A stretch of DNA of 39,071 nucleotides from Chloroflexota bacterium (GTDB lineage: Bacteria > Chloroflexota > Anaerolineae > Promineifilales > Promineifilaceae). Shown in pieces: positions 30,535 to 35,971 of the stretch. The notes under the pieces were generated by a model. It worked only from the letters and a program-made list of their open reading frames with translations, searched no databases and had not been told where the DNA came from. The position numbers were made by a program, and so were the translations under genes. The DNA is taken from contig JAAYYY010000009.1 of the NCBI GenBank assembly GCA_012515125.1, positions 1-39,071 of the forward strand, read 5' to 3'. Within the stretch, counting starts at the first letter, position 1, and every line of letters starts with the position of its first letter.

Positions 30535-30563
30535 TTGCCCAACGCCCACGTTCTTGTTATTAT
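30535..30563 (+). promoter_or_regulatory. Promoter of the GbsR-like regulator gene
   Basis: TTGCCC (30535-30540), a 17-bp spacer and TATTAT (30558-30563). The predicted transcript start near 30570 lies inside the inverted repeat at 30567-30582. Confidence 0.6.
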
Positions 30564-30566
30564 ACT

Positions 30567-30582
30567 TTCAAAACATTTTGAA
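30567..30582. promoter_or_regulatory. Candidate autoregulatory operator TTCAAAA-CA-TTTTGAA
   Basis: A perfect 7-bp inverted repeat with a 2-bp centre, sitting 3 bp after the -10 and 14 bp before the start codon of a GbsR/MarR-like gene. The position would block transcription when bound. Confidence 0.55.
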
Positions 30583-30595
30583 TGTAGGGCGAGTC

Positions 30596-31147
30596 ATGCA
30601 CAAGAGTCTCGAGACTGTTAACGATAGCACGGTAGCCGGATTCGGCCGTCTGGCCGGTTTTTTCGGTTTTAGCGACGTCATGGGGCGCCTGTACGGCACC
30701 CTCCTGCTCAGTCCCGAGCCACTTTCCCTGGACGAGCTGGCCGAGCGCCTGCGCATCAGCAAAGGCTCGGTGAGCATGAATATGCGCTCCCTCGGACGGT
30801 GGGGCATGGCCCACGAAGTGTGGATGCGTGGCGAGCGCAAGAAGTATTACGAGGCAGAGCCCGATCTCTGGCAGGTAATCCGCAACGTCGTCAACGCGCG
30901 CGAGCGGCGGGAAGTGCAGGTGGCGCTGGAAGTGCTGCGCGATAGCGTCGAGAAGCTGAAATCGGCAGAAGACGAGCTGACGCCGGAAGAGAAGAAGCTG
31001 TCTGATTTTTACCTGGCGCGGATCGACGATCTGCAGGCCTTTTTCCAGGTCGCGCAGCTGGCGATGGGGACGATTCTGGGCGGCGAGGCAGGGCTCGACC
31101 TCGAGGGGATTACCCGTTTCGAACTGCCGCACAGCGGCGCTTCCTGA
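30596..31147 (+). CDS. GbsR/MarR-family transcriptional regulator
   Basis: The 183-residue protein has a winged helix-turn-helix (about 25-95): MGRLYGTLLLSPEPLSLDEL, AERLRISKGSVSMNMRSLGR and WMRGERKKYYEAEP match the GbsR group (regulators of glycine betaine uptake or synthesis in Bacillus and archaea). A C-terminal coiled-coil-like helix pair (about 100-165) should form the dimer. No osmolyte gene is nearby, so the target is unknown. The ATG at 30596 is in a GGGCGAGTC context and lies downstream of a promoter and a perfect inverted repeat. The longer 14-codon form from 30554 would span the -10 and is rejected. Confidence 0.87.
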   Translation: MHKSLETVNDSTVAGFGRLAGFFGFSDVMGRLYGTLLLSPEPLSLDELAERLRISKGSVSMNMRSLGRWGMAHEVWMRGERKKYYEAEPDLWQVIRNVVNARERREVQVALEVLRDSVEKLKSAEDELTPEEKKLSDFYLARIDDLQAFFQVAQLAMGTILGGEAGLDLEGITRFELPHSGAS

Positions 31148-31201
31148 GCCTTTAACCCCTTTCCTTCTATATCGGCTTCAGGGGAAGATCACCCCCACAT
31201 C

Positions 31202-31231
31202 TTGCCCCTGCTAGCTCATTTGTGCTACACT
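31202..31231 (+). promoter_or_regulatory. Promoter of the nurA-HAS-herA operon
   Basis: TTGCCC (31202-31207), an 18-bp spacer and TACACT (31226-31231), with TGC in front making the extended -10 TGCTACACT. The predicted leader is about 52 nt with AGGAGAGGGG before the nurA ATG. Confidence 0.55.
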
Positions 31232-31289
31232 GTTGCCAACAGGCCGCGTTTTGCCCTTCCAGAGGGCGGCGCAGGAGAGGGGCGACAGG

Positions 31290-32519
31290 ATGTTAGAGCT
31301 TGAAAAACTCAGCGACGAAGTTGAGAAAATGGCCCGGGGGGCCTATGAGCTGCGCCAGGAAAGCGGGGAGCTACTCGACGATCTGCTGCAAAAGCTGGAA
31401 GCACACGCCACAGCCTGGTCGAAGATCGACGCCTGCCTGCGCACGGCCGTGCGCGACCTCGATCCCAAGCTCAAGTGGTATCGCTCGGCGCGCCCGCTCG
31501 ACGCGCGCGAGCCGCTGAACGCGGCAATCGATCCTAAGCCTGTGCCGGCGCAGGCGAACCTGATCGCCAGCGACGGCTCGCAGATCTTGCCCAGCCGCCA
31601 CGGCGCCTACCTCTACTCCGTCATCAATATCGGTATTATCATCTATTACCACGGGCGGGGATGCGCCCCTTTCCAGACGACCTACCCCGTCATCGACTAC
31701 CCCAATGGCGACAAGGAGGCCGACGATTTTGTTGACGACGCCGCTATCGTCAATATCCGCCGCGATCTCGCCGAGATCGAAACGCTGGTCGCCCGGGCGC
31801 AGGAGCTGACCGAAGAGGATCTTCCCGTTCTGGCCCTGCTCGATCAGCGGCTGCTCTACTGGCCTGTGGGCTCGGGCAGCAACGACGAGGGCCGGCGGGT
31901 GCTCCTTGGCTGGCAGCAGGCGATGCAGCGGGCGCGTGACTGCGGCTGCCTGCTCGCCGGCTACATCGACCGGCCGGGCAAGCGTTCGGTAATTACCATG
32001 CTGCAAACGCTGGACATCCACAAGGTGGGCTTCGAGCCCGACAGCCTGCTGCGCCCGGCGGGCGGTTCGGCCCTGACTGACGTACAGCTTTTCCGCCATA
32101 TCCTGAAGGAGCCCGGACAGCGCAGCAAGGTTTTCGTCGATATCTCCCAGCAGAACGAGCAGTTCAGCGCTTACGACGCCGATAACGAGGTTTGCTTCTT
32201 TTACCTCAATCCCGGGGCGGCGGGGCGGCAGCTGGCCCGCGTGGATATTCCCATGTGGGTGGCGCAAGATCCGGCGCTGGTGGACCTCGTACACAGCCTC
32301 GTCCATAATCAGTGCCAGATCATGGGCGGCTATCCTTACGTCCTGACCCGCGCCGACGAGCTTGCCGTCGTCGGCGCACGCGACCGGGAGAGTCTGGAGA
32401 TGATGATCGCCACGGCGATGGAACGCTACGGCTTCTACGGCTCGGTTACGTCGAAGCAAAGCGGTAAGAACGTGGCGCGCGCCGGGCGCACGCGCCACAC
32501 AGGAGTACATGGAAGATGA
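31290..32519 (+). CDS. nurA: NurA-family nuclease
   Basis: NurA is a 5'-3' exonuclease and ssDNA endonuclease that works with the HerA translocase in DNA-end resection. The 409-residue protein has an N-terminal helical region (about 1-80) and a NurA domain (about 88-385) with the metal-binding D95 in IASDGSQI, D185 in LALLDQRLLY, and GYIDRP (224-229). The C-terminal signature reads YPYVLTRADELAV, with D356 where archaeal enzymes have His in an AH pair. The ATG at 31290 has AGGAGAGGGG upstream; the longer frame from 31233 is rejected because it abuts the promoter. The stop overlaps the HAS-barrel gene (ATGA). Confidence 0.85.
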   Translation: MLELEKLSDEVEKMARGAYELRQESGELLDDLLQKLEAHATAWSKIDACLRTAVRDLDPKLKWYRSARPLDAREPLNAAIDPKPVPAQANLIASDGSQILPSRHGAYLYSVINIGIIIYYHGRGCAPFQTTYPVIDYPNGDKEADDFVDDAAIVNIRRDLAEIETLVARAQELTEEDLPVLALLDQRLLYWPVGSGSNDEGRRVLLGWQQAMQRARDCGCLLAGYIDRPGKRSVITMLQTLDIHKVGFEPDSLLRPAGGSALTDVQLFRHILKEPGQRSKVFVDISQQNEQFSAYDADNEVCFFYLNPGAAGRQLARVDIPMWVAQDPALVDLVHSLVHNQCQIMGGYPYVLTRADELAVVGARDRESLEMMIATAMERYGFYGSVTSKQSGKNVARAGRTRHTGVHGR

Positions 32520-33205
32520 CGTCACCCATCCCTCTTCCCGCCACCCCGGCCGGCAACGGCCAGTCCGCCTCACCAAACGGCGATGAGTTCGGGCGCGTCC
32601 TGCGCGCCAGCACGACCGGTTTCGCCGTCGGCAGCCGCGTAGCCCAGCTCGAAGCGCCGAGCTTTGGCTGTATGGTCAAGGCGCAGCCTGTGGACGAGCG
32701 CGAGGCCATCTATGGCCTGATCTACGACATGAACATCGACGACGATCCGTTGATCCGCCGGCTCATTCTTGCCGAGAACCCGCGCCAGTCGGTCATCGAA
32801 GACCAGCGGCGCAACCGGCTCGTGCCCATCGAGATGAGCGTGCTGACCATCGGCTACCGGCGCAACGGGCAGTTCCACCACGGGCTGCCCCCGCGCCCGC
32901 CGCTGAACCTCGACCCGGTCCAGCTCTGCACGGACCAGGAAGAGACGATCCGCTTCACCGACCGCCCGGATTACCTGCGGCTGATCCTGCGCACGGTGGG
33001 CGGGCAGGTGCCCGTCGACCAGCTTCTCGTCGCCCACATCCTGCAGACCTATGAGAAACGGGGCAACGACGCAGCCTGGGCGCGGCGCACCATCGCCGCC
33101 CTTGTCGAGCTGTTGCGCAACGATTACGATCTGCTGACGGTCGTGCTGGAGCTGCTCAGCCAGGCGCTGCCCGGGCTGCCGGAAGTGGCGGAGCTGGCGC
33201 TATAA
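32516..33205 (+). CDS. Stand-alone HAS-barrel protein between nurA and herA
   Basis: The 229-residue protein has a Pro-rich N-terminus (about 1-22), then a segment that looks like the HAS barrel (HerA-ATP synthase barrel, about 23-120): FGRVLRASTTGFAVGSRV, FGCMVKAQP and AIYGLIYDMNIDDDP follow the same order as the barrel of HerA (FGxV, FGxxVxV, GlVyD). A helical C-terminal half (about 130-229) follows, with LLVAHILQTYEKRGNDAAWA. There is no ATPase motif. Overlap with nurA and a 16-bp gap to herA imply a shared complex; an adaptor or clamp role is inferred. The ATG at 32516 has GGAAG upstream. Confidence 0.7.
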   Translation: MTSPIPLPATPAGNGQSASPNGDEFGRVLRASTTGFAVGSRVAQLEAPSFGCMVKAQPVDEREAIYGLIYDMNIDDDPLIRRLILAENPRQSVIEDQRRNRLVPIEMSVLTIGYRRNGQFHHGLPPRPPLNLDPVQLCTDQEETIRFTDRPDYLRLILRTVGGQVPVDQLLVAHILQTYEKRGNDAAWARRTIAALVELLRNDYDLLTVVLELLSQALPGLPEVAELAL

Positions 33206-33221
33206 GTAACGGGGACACATC

Positions 33222-34934
33222 ATGGCAAACAACAACATTGGCTACGTCATCGGCGGCGGCCTGCGCGAAGGCTTTCGTGTTCGCCTGACCACCCAGGCCG
33301 AGCAGGTCCAGGAAGGCAGCTTCGTCGTCTGTGATAGCGGGCGCTGGCGCTTCTTTGGCCTGGTGACCGACCTGCAGCTGGGCGCGACCGATTCACGCTA
33401 TGCCGAAGATCAGATGGAGCGGCTGCAGCCTTCGTTCCGCAGCCTGCTGCGCGGCCAGACGCTCTACACCACGCTGGATATGTACCCGACGCTGATGCTG
33501 GACAGAGGCCCGGACCCGGATCTGGATCCAGAAGGGCGGCTGGCCTGGCTGGAGGAGAGGGACGGGCAGGCGGGGCCGCAGCCGGTGAAGACGGTGCCGG
33601 ACCATCACGCCGCCGTCCGTCTGGCGGATGAGGCCGATGTGGAAGAGATCTTTCCCGGCGACTTTATCATCGGCCATACCATCGAGCAGGGGCACCCGGT
33701 GCGGCTCGACCTGGGCCGCTTCGTCAAGCGCTCCAGCGGCATTTTCGGCGCGACGGGCACCGGAAAGAGCTTCCTGACGCGCATGGCCCTCGCCGGCATG
33801 ATGAAAGAAGACGTAGCCGGCGCGCTGGTCTTCGACATGCACAACGAGTATGGCTTCGACGACCACGACAGCGACAACAACCTGAAGGTCGCCGGCCTGC
33901 GCTCCCTCTTTGGCCCGAAGGTGCAGGTAGCCGCCCTGGGCAAAGGGGCCACGGTACGCGGCCATACGCCCGACTTCACTCTGGAGCTGGGCATGGGTGA
34001 TTTTACGACGGCCGACATTCTGCTCCTCGGCGAGGCGCTCAACCTGACGGACACCGCCGAAGTTACCCTTAACGCGCTGGCCCGTGCGTTCGGCCAGAAC
34101 TGGTTCTCCAGCTTTATGCGGCTGGAGCCGGGAGCCGTCGAGGTCGATCCTGAGACCGGAAAGTCGGTGCCCGCGGACAACTCCGTCGCCGCCTGGGCGC
34201 GGCAAAACAACGTGCAGGAAAAGGCCGCCGAAGCGCTGCACCGGCGTTTGGCGACGATAGCCAGCCGCCCCTACGTGGTCGAACAGCCGGTGAGCGACGC
34301 CGTCACAGAGATCGTCGATAAACTGGAGCACGGCCGGCACATCATCCTGAGCTTCGGCGAATATGAACGCGACCTCGACTATCTGCTCGTCAGCAACATC
34401 CTTACCCGGCGCATCCGCCAGCACTGGGTGCGCAAGACTGAGGAGCACAAGACGCATGGGGCACCGTCGCCGCGCCCGCTGGTCATCGCCGTCGAAGAGG
34501 CGCACAAGCTGCTGAACCCACACATCGCCCGGCAGACCGCCTTCGGCACCATCGCCCGCGAGCTGCGCAAATATTTCGTCACCCTGCTCATCGTCGATCA
34601 GCGTCCCTCGGGCATCGATGACGAGGTGATGAGCCAGCTCGGCACGCGCATCACCGGCTGGCTGGGCGACGAGGACGACATTCGCGCCGTGCTGACCGGT
34701 CTGGCCGGCCGGGAGCAGCTTCGCGGCATGCTCGCCCGCCTGCAGGAAAAAGAGGAAGTGCTGCTGCTCGGCTGGGGCGTCAAGATGCCGATCCCGGTAC
34801 GCTCGCGCCGCTACGATCAGGACTTCTACGACGAGATGCGGGGCCGCAAGAAGCGCGAGTCGGCCGGAGGAAGCAACGCTTTCCCCGTCATCGACGATTT
34901 TGACGACATCAACAGCGATCTGTTCGGCGCATGA
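33222..34934 (+). CDS. herA: HerA-like DNA translocase/helicase ATPase
   Basis: The 570-residue HerA/FtsK-superfamily ATPase is expected to form a hexameric ring that pumps DNA for NurA. It has an N-terminal HAS barrel (about 5-60, IGYVIGGGLREGFRVRL, FFGLVTDLQLGATD), Walker A GATGTGKS (176-183), the DMHNEYG segment (205-211) equivalent to the HerA DPxxEY motif, and Walker B VIAVEEAHKLL (421-431) with adjacent Glu residues. RELRKYFVTLLIVDQRPS is the sensor/arginine-finger region, and a C-terminal brace (about 545-570) is acidic. The ATG at 33222 has GGGGA upstream. The stop overlaps the alcohol dehydrogenase start by 4 bp. Confidence 0.9.
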   Translation: MANNNIGYVIGGGLREGFRVRLTTQAEQVQEGSFVVCDSGRWRFFGLVTDLQLGATDSRYAEDQMERLQPSFRSLLRGQTLYTTLDMYPTLMLDRGPDPDLDPEGRLAWLEERDGQAGPQPVKTVPDHHAAVRLADEADVEEIFPGDFIIGHTIEQGHPVRLDLGRFVKRSSGIFGATGTGKSFLTRMALAGMMKEDVAGALVFDMHNEYGFDDHDSDNNLKVAGLRSLFGPKVQVAALGKGATVRGHTPDFTLELGMGDFTTADILLLGEALNLTDTAEVTLNALARAFGQNWFSSFMRLEPGAVEVDPETGKSVPADNSVAAWARQNNVQEKAAEALHRRLATIASRPYVVEQPVSDAVTEIVDKLEHGRHIILSFGEYERDLDYLLVSNILTRRIRQHWVRKTEEHKTHGAPSPRPLVIAVEEAHKLLNPHIARQTAFGTIARELRKYFVTLLIVDQRPSGIDDEVMSQLGTRITGWLGDEDDIRAVLTGLAGREQLRGMLARLQEKEEVLLLGWGVKMPIPVRSRRYDQDFYDEMRGRKKRESAGGSNAFPVIDDFDDINSDLFGA

Positions 34935-35971
34935 GAGCGGCGATCTTTGATGCCTTTGCCGGGCCAATCGCCATCCGGGAACTGCCCGATCCCGAGCCGC
35001 CGCCCGACGGCGTCGTCATTCAGGTCGGCGCGACCGGCCTTTGCCGCAGCGACTGGCACGGCTGGATGGGGCACGACGCCGACGTGCACCCGCCGCACGT
35101 ACCGGGGCACGAGTTCGCGGGGCGTATCGTCGCCGTCGGGCCGGAGGTGCGCGGCTGGCAGATCGGCGAGCGGGTGACGGTACCCTTTGCCCTGGGTTGC
35201 GGCGCCTGCCCCCAATGCACCGCCGGCAACCAGCAGATCTGCGACAACTATTACCAGCCCGGCTTCACCGGCTGGGGCAGCTTTGCCGAGTACGTCGCCA
35301 TTCCCTACGCAGCGGCCAACCTCGTGCGGCTGCCTGACGAAGTCAGCGACGTGGAAGCAGCGACCCTCGGCTGCCGCTTTATCACCTCTTTCCGGGCTAT
35401 CGTCGATCAGGGCCGCCTGCGTGCGGGAGAATGGGCCGTGGTCTACGGCTGCGGCGGCGTGGGCCTCTCGGCGATTATGATCGCCCATAGCCAGGGGGCA
35501 CGGGTCGTCGCCGTAGACGTAGACGACGCGGCGCTGGCCCTCGCCCAACAGATGGGCGCAGACGCCGTGCTCAACGCGCGCATGATGGAAGACGCGCCGG
35601 CAGCGGTGGTCGAGATAACCGGCGGCGGCGCCCACCTCAGCCTCGACGCGCTGGGCAGCGCCGAGACCTGCCGCAACGCCATTCTCAGCCTGCGCAAGCG
35701 GGGGCGCCACGTACAGGTCGGGCTTCTGGGAGCGGAAGGGGGTCAGACGATGGCGCCGATAGGCCGGATCATCGCCCACGAGCTGGAGATACTCGGCAGC
35801 CACGGCATGCAAGCTCACCAGTACCCGCGCCTGCTGGGGATGATGGCGGCGGGCCGCCTGCAGCCCGGCCGGCTCGTGCAGCGCACGATCAGCCTGGAAG
35901 AGGCCCCGGAGGCGCTAGAAGCAATGGGGCGCTTCGCGCAGCCGGGCGTGACGGTGATCGATCGCTTCTAG
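34931..35971 (+). CDS. Zinc-dependent medium-chain alcohol dehydrogenase
   Basis: The 346-residue MDR-family enzyme has catalytic zinc ligands C38 (GLCRSDWHG), H60-E61 (GHEFAG) and C148, a structural zinc site C90/C93/C96/C104 (GCGACPQC ... ICDN) and the cofactor loop GCGGVG. The residue at the end of the second strand of the Rossmann fold is Asp (VVAVDVDD), favouring NAD. The substrate is not predictable. The ATG overlaps the herA stop (ATGA) with no own ribosome-binding site, so it depends on herA translation; the biochemical reason is unclear. Convergent with the panE-family gene, 30 bp away. Confidence 0.9.
   Translation: MRAAIFDAFAGPIAIRELPDPEPPPDGVVIQVGATGLCRSDWHGWMGHDADVHPPHVPGHEFAGRIVAVGPEVRGWQIGERVTVPFALGCGACPQCTAGNQQICDNYYQPGFTGWGSFAEYVAIPYAAANLVRLPDEVSDVEAATLGCRFITSFRAIVDQGRLRAGEWAVVYGCGGVGLSAIMIAHSQGARVVAVDVDDAALALAQQMGADAVLNARMMEDAPAAVVEITGGGAHLSLDALGSAETCRNAILSLRKRGRHVQVGLLGAEGGQTMAPIGRIIAHELEILGSHGMQAHQYPRLLGMMAAGRLQPGRLVQRTISLEEAPEALEAMGRFAQPGVTVIDRF

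Follow-up and report, generated by a model that had tools for sequence, protein, structure and literature searches.

In a Chloroflexota bacterium (assembly GCA_012515125.1) the genes of the nuclease NurA and the translocase HerA enclose a third gene, here called the middle gene, whose product is predicted by fold to be a free-standing HAS-barrel (HerA-ATP synthase barrel) protein without an ATPase domain. The genes lie on contig JAAYYY010000009.1, of which a stretch of 39,071 nt was analysed, hereafter the window. Within the phylum the middle gene is well supported as a dedicated partner of HerA–NurA, and we propose, with about as much confidence as doubt, that it encodes a third, non-motor subunit of the HerA–NurA DNA-end-processing machine, acting as an adaptor or as an extra ring element. 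The predicted fold, the gene order, the co-occurrence with HerA and the HAS-barrel of HerA itself were computed, and from these we infer binding of the middle protein in the complex and its role in the cell.

Predicted fold of the middle protein

Sequence searches with the middle protein of the window returned no Pfam family, the HAS-barrel family PF09378 included, only a chance match in NCBIfam (E 0.088) and nothing real in the PDB, where phmmer found no match and the best hit of a profile search was Poxin (E 0.33). An AlphaFold2 (AF2) model was built from 35 sequences, namely the window and 34 of the 35 loci found by peptide patterns, with one locus that is cut short (L071) left out. The model reached a predicted local distance difference test (pLDDT) of 82.5 and a predicted template modelling score (pTM) of 0.77, the five models ranging from 82.5 to 78.6, and consists of a beta-barrel at residues 24-137 and a helical tail at residues 141-228. 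With this model, a Foldseek search of the PDB gave 597 matches at E <= 10 and 43 at E <= 0.001 (best E 9.1e-6), and the best 50 of the 597 are all HerA or TdpAB entries by title or name. VIA-align, which re-aligns Foldseek's own hits, gave Z 11.6 to residues 2-125 of 9c1m_Q and Z 9.9 to HerA of Deinococcus radiodurans (7wrx_B) and of T. kodakarensis (9x1m_A), with F1-ATPase chains next from Z 8.2 downward. Since HAS stands for HerA-ATP synthase, matches to both HerA and F1-ATPase are expected.

The AF2 model of the window HerA was computed from the window and 13 relatives (best of five models pLDDT 80.5, worst 62.4; pTM 0.79), and its residues 1-539 align to HerA chains from the first residues on. 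The order of strands (E) and helices (H) in the middle protein (E24-31 E35-43 E53-56 E63-74 H78-85 E102-116 E119-121 E134-137 H141-147) is near-identical to that of HerA residues 5-143 (E5-13 E17-22 E34-39 E42-57 H70-75 E79-94 H105-115 E131-134 H137-143). The exception is the element before the last strand, a strand at 119-121 in the middle protein and a poorly predicted helix at 105-115 in HerA. On these models the middle protein corresponds to HerA up to about residue 143, a short helical tail replacing the ATPase; HerA retains its own barrel, and the middle protein seems to be an extra, motor-less copy of that part. The preliminary description of the locus, made from the sequence, had named the middle gene a HAS-barrel gene, and the predicted fold (AF2, Foldseek, VIA-align) agrees with a HAS-barrel of the HerA type. 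This fold applies to the window-type family, while the divergent subfamily c introduced below is assigned to it by profile and gene position and should be regarded as a putative member.

Such a fold also suggests a different function, in which a small beta-barrel protein binds DNA or its ends and recruits HerA–NurA to breaks. HAS-barrels are indeed grouped with small beta-barrel DNA-binding folds in the accessible part of one source (PMC12839542), but the structure matches of the middle protein are specifically to HerA docking domains, and we consider this function very unlikely. All 40 middle proteins examined have a net negative charge, which says little here as the HerA (-20) and NurA (-10) of the window are also net negative; we therefore no longer count charge as evidence against DNA binding.

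HerA and NurA of the window

HerA matches the DUF87/HerA central domain of Pfam with 80.3 bits (cut-off 23.2) and, among solved structures, 4d2i by sequence (best match, E 2.3e-18). Residues G179, G181 and K182 of its P-loop are invariant in 16 HerA sequences. The protein combines P-loop, DUF87 domain and N-terminal HAS-barrel, the Pfam score of the latter (22 bits, residues 6-58) lying itself under the cut-off of 25.2. NurA scores 68.6 bits with Pfam NurA, above the curated cut-off of 21. Across an alignment of 67 NurA sequences, in which some contigs occur twice, D95, D185, D264, K389 and K393 are invariant (100%) and E162 is present in 99%. On the basis of archaeal NurA work, D95, E162 and D185 are the putative catalytic acids. 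A sequence search of solved structures with the NurA profile matched no solved NurA. At residues 348-360 NurA carries the motif YP..L..A[H/D], in the form 'A-D' in the window and many relatives and in the form 'A-H' in others, and both forms are present in several groups.

The HerA fold is also where a role in defence has to be considered. The three genes would then destroy foreign DNA (plasmids, phages) like the HerA antiphage systems or TdpAB, with the middle protein as sensor or adaptor, a reading that we judge quite unlikely. In its favour, the HerA model is as near to TdpA (Z 29.5 to the TdpAB chain 8wfd_C) and to the antiphage HerA 8xav (28.4) as to the archaeal 4d2i (28.4), so that the modelled fold does not appear to separate repair from defence. 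HerA also matches 16 PADLOC models, 14 of them named HerA, one mad8 and one DndH (best 92.6 bits), models that are given without a cut-off and may catch any HerA. On the other hand, NurA and the middle protein match none of the PADLOC models, which leaves the locus without a PADLOC partner effector. The NCBIfam score is higher on the repair model HerA_Thermprot (90.3 bits, cut-off 800) than on the two antiphage HerA models (57.1 and 42.4 bits, cut-offs 800 and 850); a second repair model, helicase_HerA, gave 45.8 bits with a cut-off of 970. All these scores are far under their cut-offs, and the two repair models are narrow.

Distribution in Chloroflexota

Two profiles were used for the middle gene: the first profile family, A1, and the second, divergent profile family, A7 (subfamily c). 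Among the genome of the window and 39 relatives, the middle gene is present in 35 of 40 and NurA likewise in 35 of 40; of the 23 good-quality relatives, 22 carry the middle gene and 21 NurA. Presence in 22 of 23 near relatives speaks against a system of defence. A peptide-pattern search of genome contigs with subfamily b patterns found 35 loci, all in Chloroflexota by record title.

For the whole phylum a sample of 301 Chloroflexota genomes was searched, own genome included, with a threshold of E <= 1e-30 for HerA. A1 matches 123 of these genomes, NurA 187 and HerA 175; of the 170 that carry NurA together with HerA, 120 have an A1 match. We rejected the idea that the remaining 50 lack a middle gene, since A7 finds one in 46 of them; the 17 loci behind A7 come from this 301-genome sample, so those genomes are found by construction. 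A7 matches 58 genomes, 50 A1-negative and 8 A1-positive, and none of the 109 with neither NurA nor HerA. Taken together, A1 and A7 are found in 166 of 170 genomes with both proteins, in 3 of the 5 that have HerA alone, in 4 of the 17 that have NurA alone and in none of the 109 that lack both. The genomes are related and not independent, and p-values of such co-occurrence tests are overstated. The four genomes with both proteins and without a match are G052, G138, G175 and G214; in G175 the contig ends within herA.

With the middle gene present in 35 of the 40 genomes, own included, and in 166 of 170 genomes with NurA and HerA, the linkage is not due to chance. The same numbers run counter to the outcome that the preliminary description had named as its refutation, absence of the middle gene from most relatives.

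Gene order, spacing and co-variation

Within 2.5 kb, the 123 A1 genomes show the order nurA-middle-herA in at least 51 cases, nurA-middle in 35 and middle-herA in 25, adjacency being a lower bound since 8 genomes are without a listed HerA place and 23 without a NurA place. The preliminary description had treated the three genes as one module, and the recurrence of their order in other genomes, for which we searched, supports a conserved unit. For the A7 type, 28 of 31 genomes with listed HerA places have the middle gene at most 600 nt upstream of herA. Fifteen HerA regions were read: all 10 from A1-negative genomes carry an A7-type gene upstream of herA, and the other five have no middle gene beside herA, their genomes having it elsewhere. 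In 12 A1-negative NurA regions that were read, the middle gene lies between nurA and herA in 7, and nurA stands alone in 5.

The start of the middle gene lies between -60 and +300 nt from the nurA stop in 59 of 64 fetched pairs, most commonly with a 4-nt overlap (14 of 64), and the middle-herA spacing falls in the same range in 39 of 49 cases, with a 4-nt overlap in 10; in these counts each gene was assigned the start codon closest to the preceding stop, a choice biased towards short distances, and some contigs were reached twice. Sequence distances of the middle gene, NurA and HerA correlate with each other (r 0.55-0.74, Mantel p <= 0.0074, 10 to 13 genomes).

Co-occurrence of this kind would be expected of a regulator no less than of a subunit. 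The middle protein could bind NurA via its HerA-like HAS surface and quiet the nuclease, or block early HerA–NurA assembly until DNA ends appear, standing as a regulator or decoy outside the working machine. In favour of this, the middle protein copies only the NurA-docking part of HerA, and in D. radiodurans the NurA-facing surface of HerA is described as negative and that of NurA as positive (PMC9960219, in the text available to us), the 40 middle proteins being net negative like HerA and NurA of the window. The A7 type, however, is tied to herA and not to nurA (10 of 10 HerA loci read; 28 of 31 by place), an unexpected link for a NurA inhibitor, and a mere regulator might be expected to be lost in more than 4 of 170 genomes. 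We consider a regulator or decoy rather unlikely.

Layout of the locus

In the window, all three genes run in the same direction on the + strand (window sequence and open reading frames), with the following features:

31290..32519, + strand: nurA, 409 aa nuclease, ATG start at 31290, Pfam NurA
32516..32519, + strand: ATGA overlap of the nurA stop and the middle-gene start, from the sequence
32516..33205, + strand: middle gene, 229 aa, predicted stand-alone HAS-barrel protein without ATPase domain (AF2 model, Foldseek, VIA-align)
32585..32926, + strand: predicted HAS-barrel part of the middle protein, residues 24-137 (AF2 strands; Z 11.6 to 9c1m_Q)
32936..33199, + strand: predicted C-terminal helical tail of the middle protein, residues 141-228 (AF2; mostly beyond the ranges aligned by VIA-align)
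33222..34934, + strand: herA, 570 aa hexameric-type translocase (DUF87; match to solved HerA; AF2 model)
33234..33503, + strand: N-terminal HAS-barrel of HerA itself, about residues 5-94 (Pfam match under cut-off and AF2 strands)
33747..33770, + strand: HerA P-loop GATGTGKS, residues 176-183 (16-sequence HerA alignment)
34494..34505, + strand: HerA EEAH motif, residues 425-428, invariant in 16 HerA sequences
34931..35971, + strand: zinc alcohol dehydrogenase gene, sharing ATGA with the herA end

Adjacency and translational linkage, as first described, are seen in the ATGA overlap of nurA and the middle gene, in the herA start 16 nt past the middle-gene end and in the common strand. Because herA shares ATGA with the alcohol dehydrogenase gene, the transcript probably runs on past herA; this gene is probably read through and lies outside the module, and in a relative of the same family (L146) a different gene follows herA on the opposite strand. 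The preliminary description had placed the genes under one promoter; a simple scan found no sigma-70-like site directly 5' of nurA, the nearest upstream on the + strand being at 30535-30563 (9/12). The block icd-thiD-regulator-yjjX-nurA-middle-herA recurs within the family in L146 and, without thiD, in L145. The regulator that precedes nurA in the window (30554-31290 region) resembles CudC with 76 bits, under the cut-off of 218. The gene yjjX (inosine/xanthosine triphosphatase), found between regulator and nurA in L145 and L146, is missing in the window.

mre11, rad50 and other repair genes

The loci read for their context were chosen and are not a random draw. The absence of mre11 and rad50 noted at the outset applies to the window, where searches of the own genome for SbcD/Mre11 and SbcC/Rad50 gave no match on this contig, but not to the genome, in which an SbcD fragment (contig C350), a weak second one (C290) and the C-terminal part of SbcC (C437) lie elsewhere. 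Of 20 genomes searched, the own one among them, 16 have an SbcD match, which exceeds the cut-off in 14. An order-level relative (L023) has the gene order nurA-middle-herA-mre11-rad50, with sbcD over the cut-off and sbcC a partial match to the query under it, and L024 has nurA-middle-herA-mre11. In L035 together with L142 (G034:C104) the middle gene at the contig end is followed on one strand by herA, mre11, another gene, recA, recX (under the cut-off) and rny, and this stretch is a recombination cluster; the other gene between mre11 and recA is probably that of a family-4 glycosidase.

L046 reads nurA-middle-...-polX-...-ligA. In L074, L077 and L080 (families f38, f54 and f35) nurA directly follows a gene resembling the C-terminal half of Rad50 (partial and under cut-offs); two of these genomes (G061, G122) have the middle gene and herA as a separate pair, and in G074 the middle gene is on another contig. 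In L077 an Mre11-like gene lies near nurA on the opposite strand.

The preliminary description had presented the link of nurA/herA to mre11/rad50 as archaeal. Such a contrast is not supported, as mre11 directly follows herA in L023 (with rad50), L024 and L035, and the middle gene in turn is part of a haloarchaeal mre11-rad50 operon. Of the two roles to which, in its view, the setting points, repair or replication, repair is favoured, since in the loci read the module, whole or in part, stands together with mre11, rad50, recA, polX and ligA in relatives. Repair and housekeeping genes among the neighbours in the loci read likewise argue against defence.

Archaeal plasmids and viruses

Among 72,556 plasmid records, a query from subfamily c matched four haloarchaeal plasmids (E 1e-13 to 6e-10), and an archaeal query matched the same four; only plasmids were searched for haloarchaeal copies. 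Three of these plasmids carry genes annotated metallophosphoesterase, SMC ATPase, NurA, hypothetical and DUF87/ATP-binding protein in this order, equivalent to mre11-rad50-nurA-middle-herA, and the fourth record has middle-herA at its end. The nurA, mre11 and herA profiles match on the haloarchaeal plasmids, as does the iterated middle-gene profile (E 3e-23 to 8e-12); the A1 profile alone matches three of the four at 2e-4 to 2e-3 and the fourth not at all. In the DL31 operon Pfam confirms four of five genes, the middle one being without match. On the Halorussus plasmid a PLSDB 'DES-1 beta-lactamase' fragment (L110:2710-2871) overlies the herA end and is probably spurious.

The middle protein of the window matches none of the 72,556 plasmid records, and neither this protein nor the archaeal one matches any of 50,697 phage records; viral contigs, scanned twice with short peptide patterns only, yielded no relative. 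While the four plasmid copies, from a search of plasmids only, would suit a system of defence, the phage records and the two pattern-limited scans speak against it. A review states, in its accessible part, that H. volcanii has no HerA or NurA (PMC7776575). In our searches Pfam NurA scored over the cut-off in the H. volcanii control genome, contrary to that part of the review.

Proposed mechanism and points that weigh against it

Solved complexes of D. radiodurans and T. kodakarensis show the NurA dimer held by the HAS-barrels of HerA (PMC9960219, PMC12977600, as far as these texts were available). Because a free HAS-barrel protein accompanies HerA nearly always, we place the action of the middle protein at the HerA–NurA face. 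As for how it works, we infer that it would bind on or between the HAS ring of HerA and NurA. As an adaptor, it may set the seating of the two-fold NurA on the six-fold ring and govern the feeding of DNA ends to the nuclease, and the cell would use the complex to process DNA ends when breaks are repaired, the Mre11-Rad50 genes adjoining the module in some relatives and lying apart from it in the own genome.

A more far-reaching version, possible but doubtful in our estimate, is that Chloroflexota and some haloarchaea have a three-tier machine. A HerA ring, a non-catalytic HAS-barrel layer (or HAS-barrel places) derived from the HerA docking domain, and a NurA dimer would then solve the two-on-six mismatch and control access to ends, loosely like the non-catalytic alpha subunit of F1-ATPase. 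The middle protein would be an ancient part of the Mre11-Rad50-NurA-HerA operon, unseen because model organisms lack it.

Several observations weigh against a third subunit. The middle gene often stands with one partner only and has neither within 2.5 kb in up to 12 of 123 A1 genomes, and NurA and HerA are both absent from 109 of 301 phylum genomes. No subfamily-c member (0 of 17) matches PF09378, while A1 members do so weakly (8 of 19, best E 0.011). One A1 member matches PIN_10 (E 0.0078) better than any matches the HAS-barrel family, a hit taken as chance. Subfamily c is tied to A1 by profile comparison (prob 95.9, E 6e-9) and gene position. Compared with HerA by sequence, the middle families give weak values (E 0.044 and 0.0014, prob 1.2 and 17), and sequence indicates common descent of middle protein and HerA weakly. 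The contact of the middle protein with NurA or HerA is a proposed one. In published work, as far as it was accessible, HerA–NurA is described as two-part, so a third part is not needed everywhere.

Distances within the module compared with those of isocitrate dehydrogenase (icd) give r 0.10-0.21 (p 0.09-0.31; 10 to 16 genomes with both loci fetched). Plain vertical descent of the module is not borne out by this control, and the correlated module distances without an icd match fit co-evolution or joint transfer.

Repair in particular has to be set against the 14 matching PADLOC HerA models, the undiscriminating fold, the plasmid copies and the 109 of 301 genomes without the system, and the authors of the T. 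kodakarensis study doubt end resection (PMC12977600, in the part available). Defence would be consistent with the same absence, with module distances that do not follow icd and with the cutting of both strands by T. kodakarensis HerA–NurA, for which destruction of foreign double-stranded DNA is one possibility suggested in the accessible text of that study (PMC12977600). Nevertheless, we favour repair over defence because of the repair neighbours in the loci read, the presence in near relatives, the absence of phage links and the absence of PADLOC partner models.

Relation to known systems

With HerA–NurA of Deinococcus radiodurans and archaea (S. solfataricus, T. kodakarensis) the locus shares the NurA domain, the side-by-side genes, a link to mre11/rad50 in some relatives, and a HerA translocase with P-loop, N-terminal HAS-barrel and C-terminal HerA motifs. 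It differs by the extra stand-alone gene for a predicted HAS-barrel between the two, the published complexes being described as 6 HerA and 2 NurA. The middle protein resembles Pfam PF09378 in predicted fold and strand order and through the weak matches of 8 of 19 A1 members, but it is free-standing, lacks the ATPase, and neither the window protein nor any of the 17 subfamily-c members matches that family. The barrels of F1-ATPase alpha and beta form a crown on which a partner docks, and they are of the HAS type by fold; unlike the middle protein, however, non-catalytic F1 alpha keeps its RecA-like domain.

TdpAB of Thermus and the antiphage SIR2/DUF4297-HerA complexes combine, by their entry titles, a HerA-type ring with a partner enzyme. 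The locus described here differs from them in matching no PADLOC partner model and in scores under the NCBIfam antiphage cut-offs, and to our knowledge neither of them includes a third protein made of a HAS-barrel only. The literature searched, which did not cover the 2004 FtsK-HerA superfamily paper as the likeliest place of an earlier mention, contained no mention of a third HerA–NurA gene. The parts are of known kinds; absent from that literature are a third gene made of a HAS-barrel only, its coupling to NurA and HerA across the phylum and its common position in the archaeal five-gene operon.

HerA–NurA has so far been treated as a two-part motor–nuclease, the role of which is disputed between the making of 3'-overhangs and the destruction of foreign DNA. 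The purified two-part complex of T. kodakarensis cuts both strands, and its authors, in the available part of their study, find end resection hard to explain (PMC12977600). A putative copy of the docking domain in 166 of 170 genomes with NurA and HerA, and in three plasmid operons, raises the question of whether the missing part sets polarity, processivity or loading, and gives proteins now called hypothetical a likely place of action.

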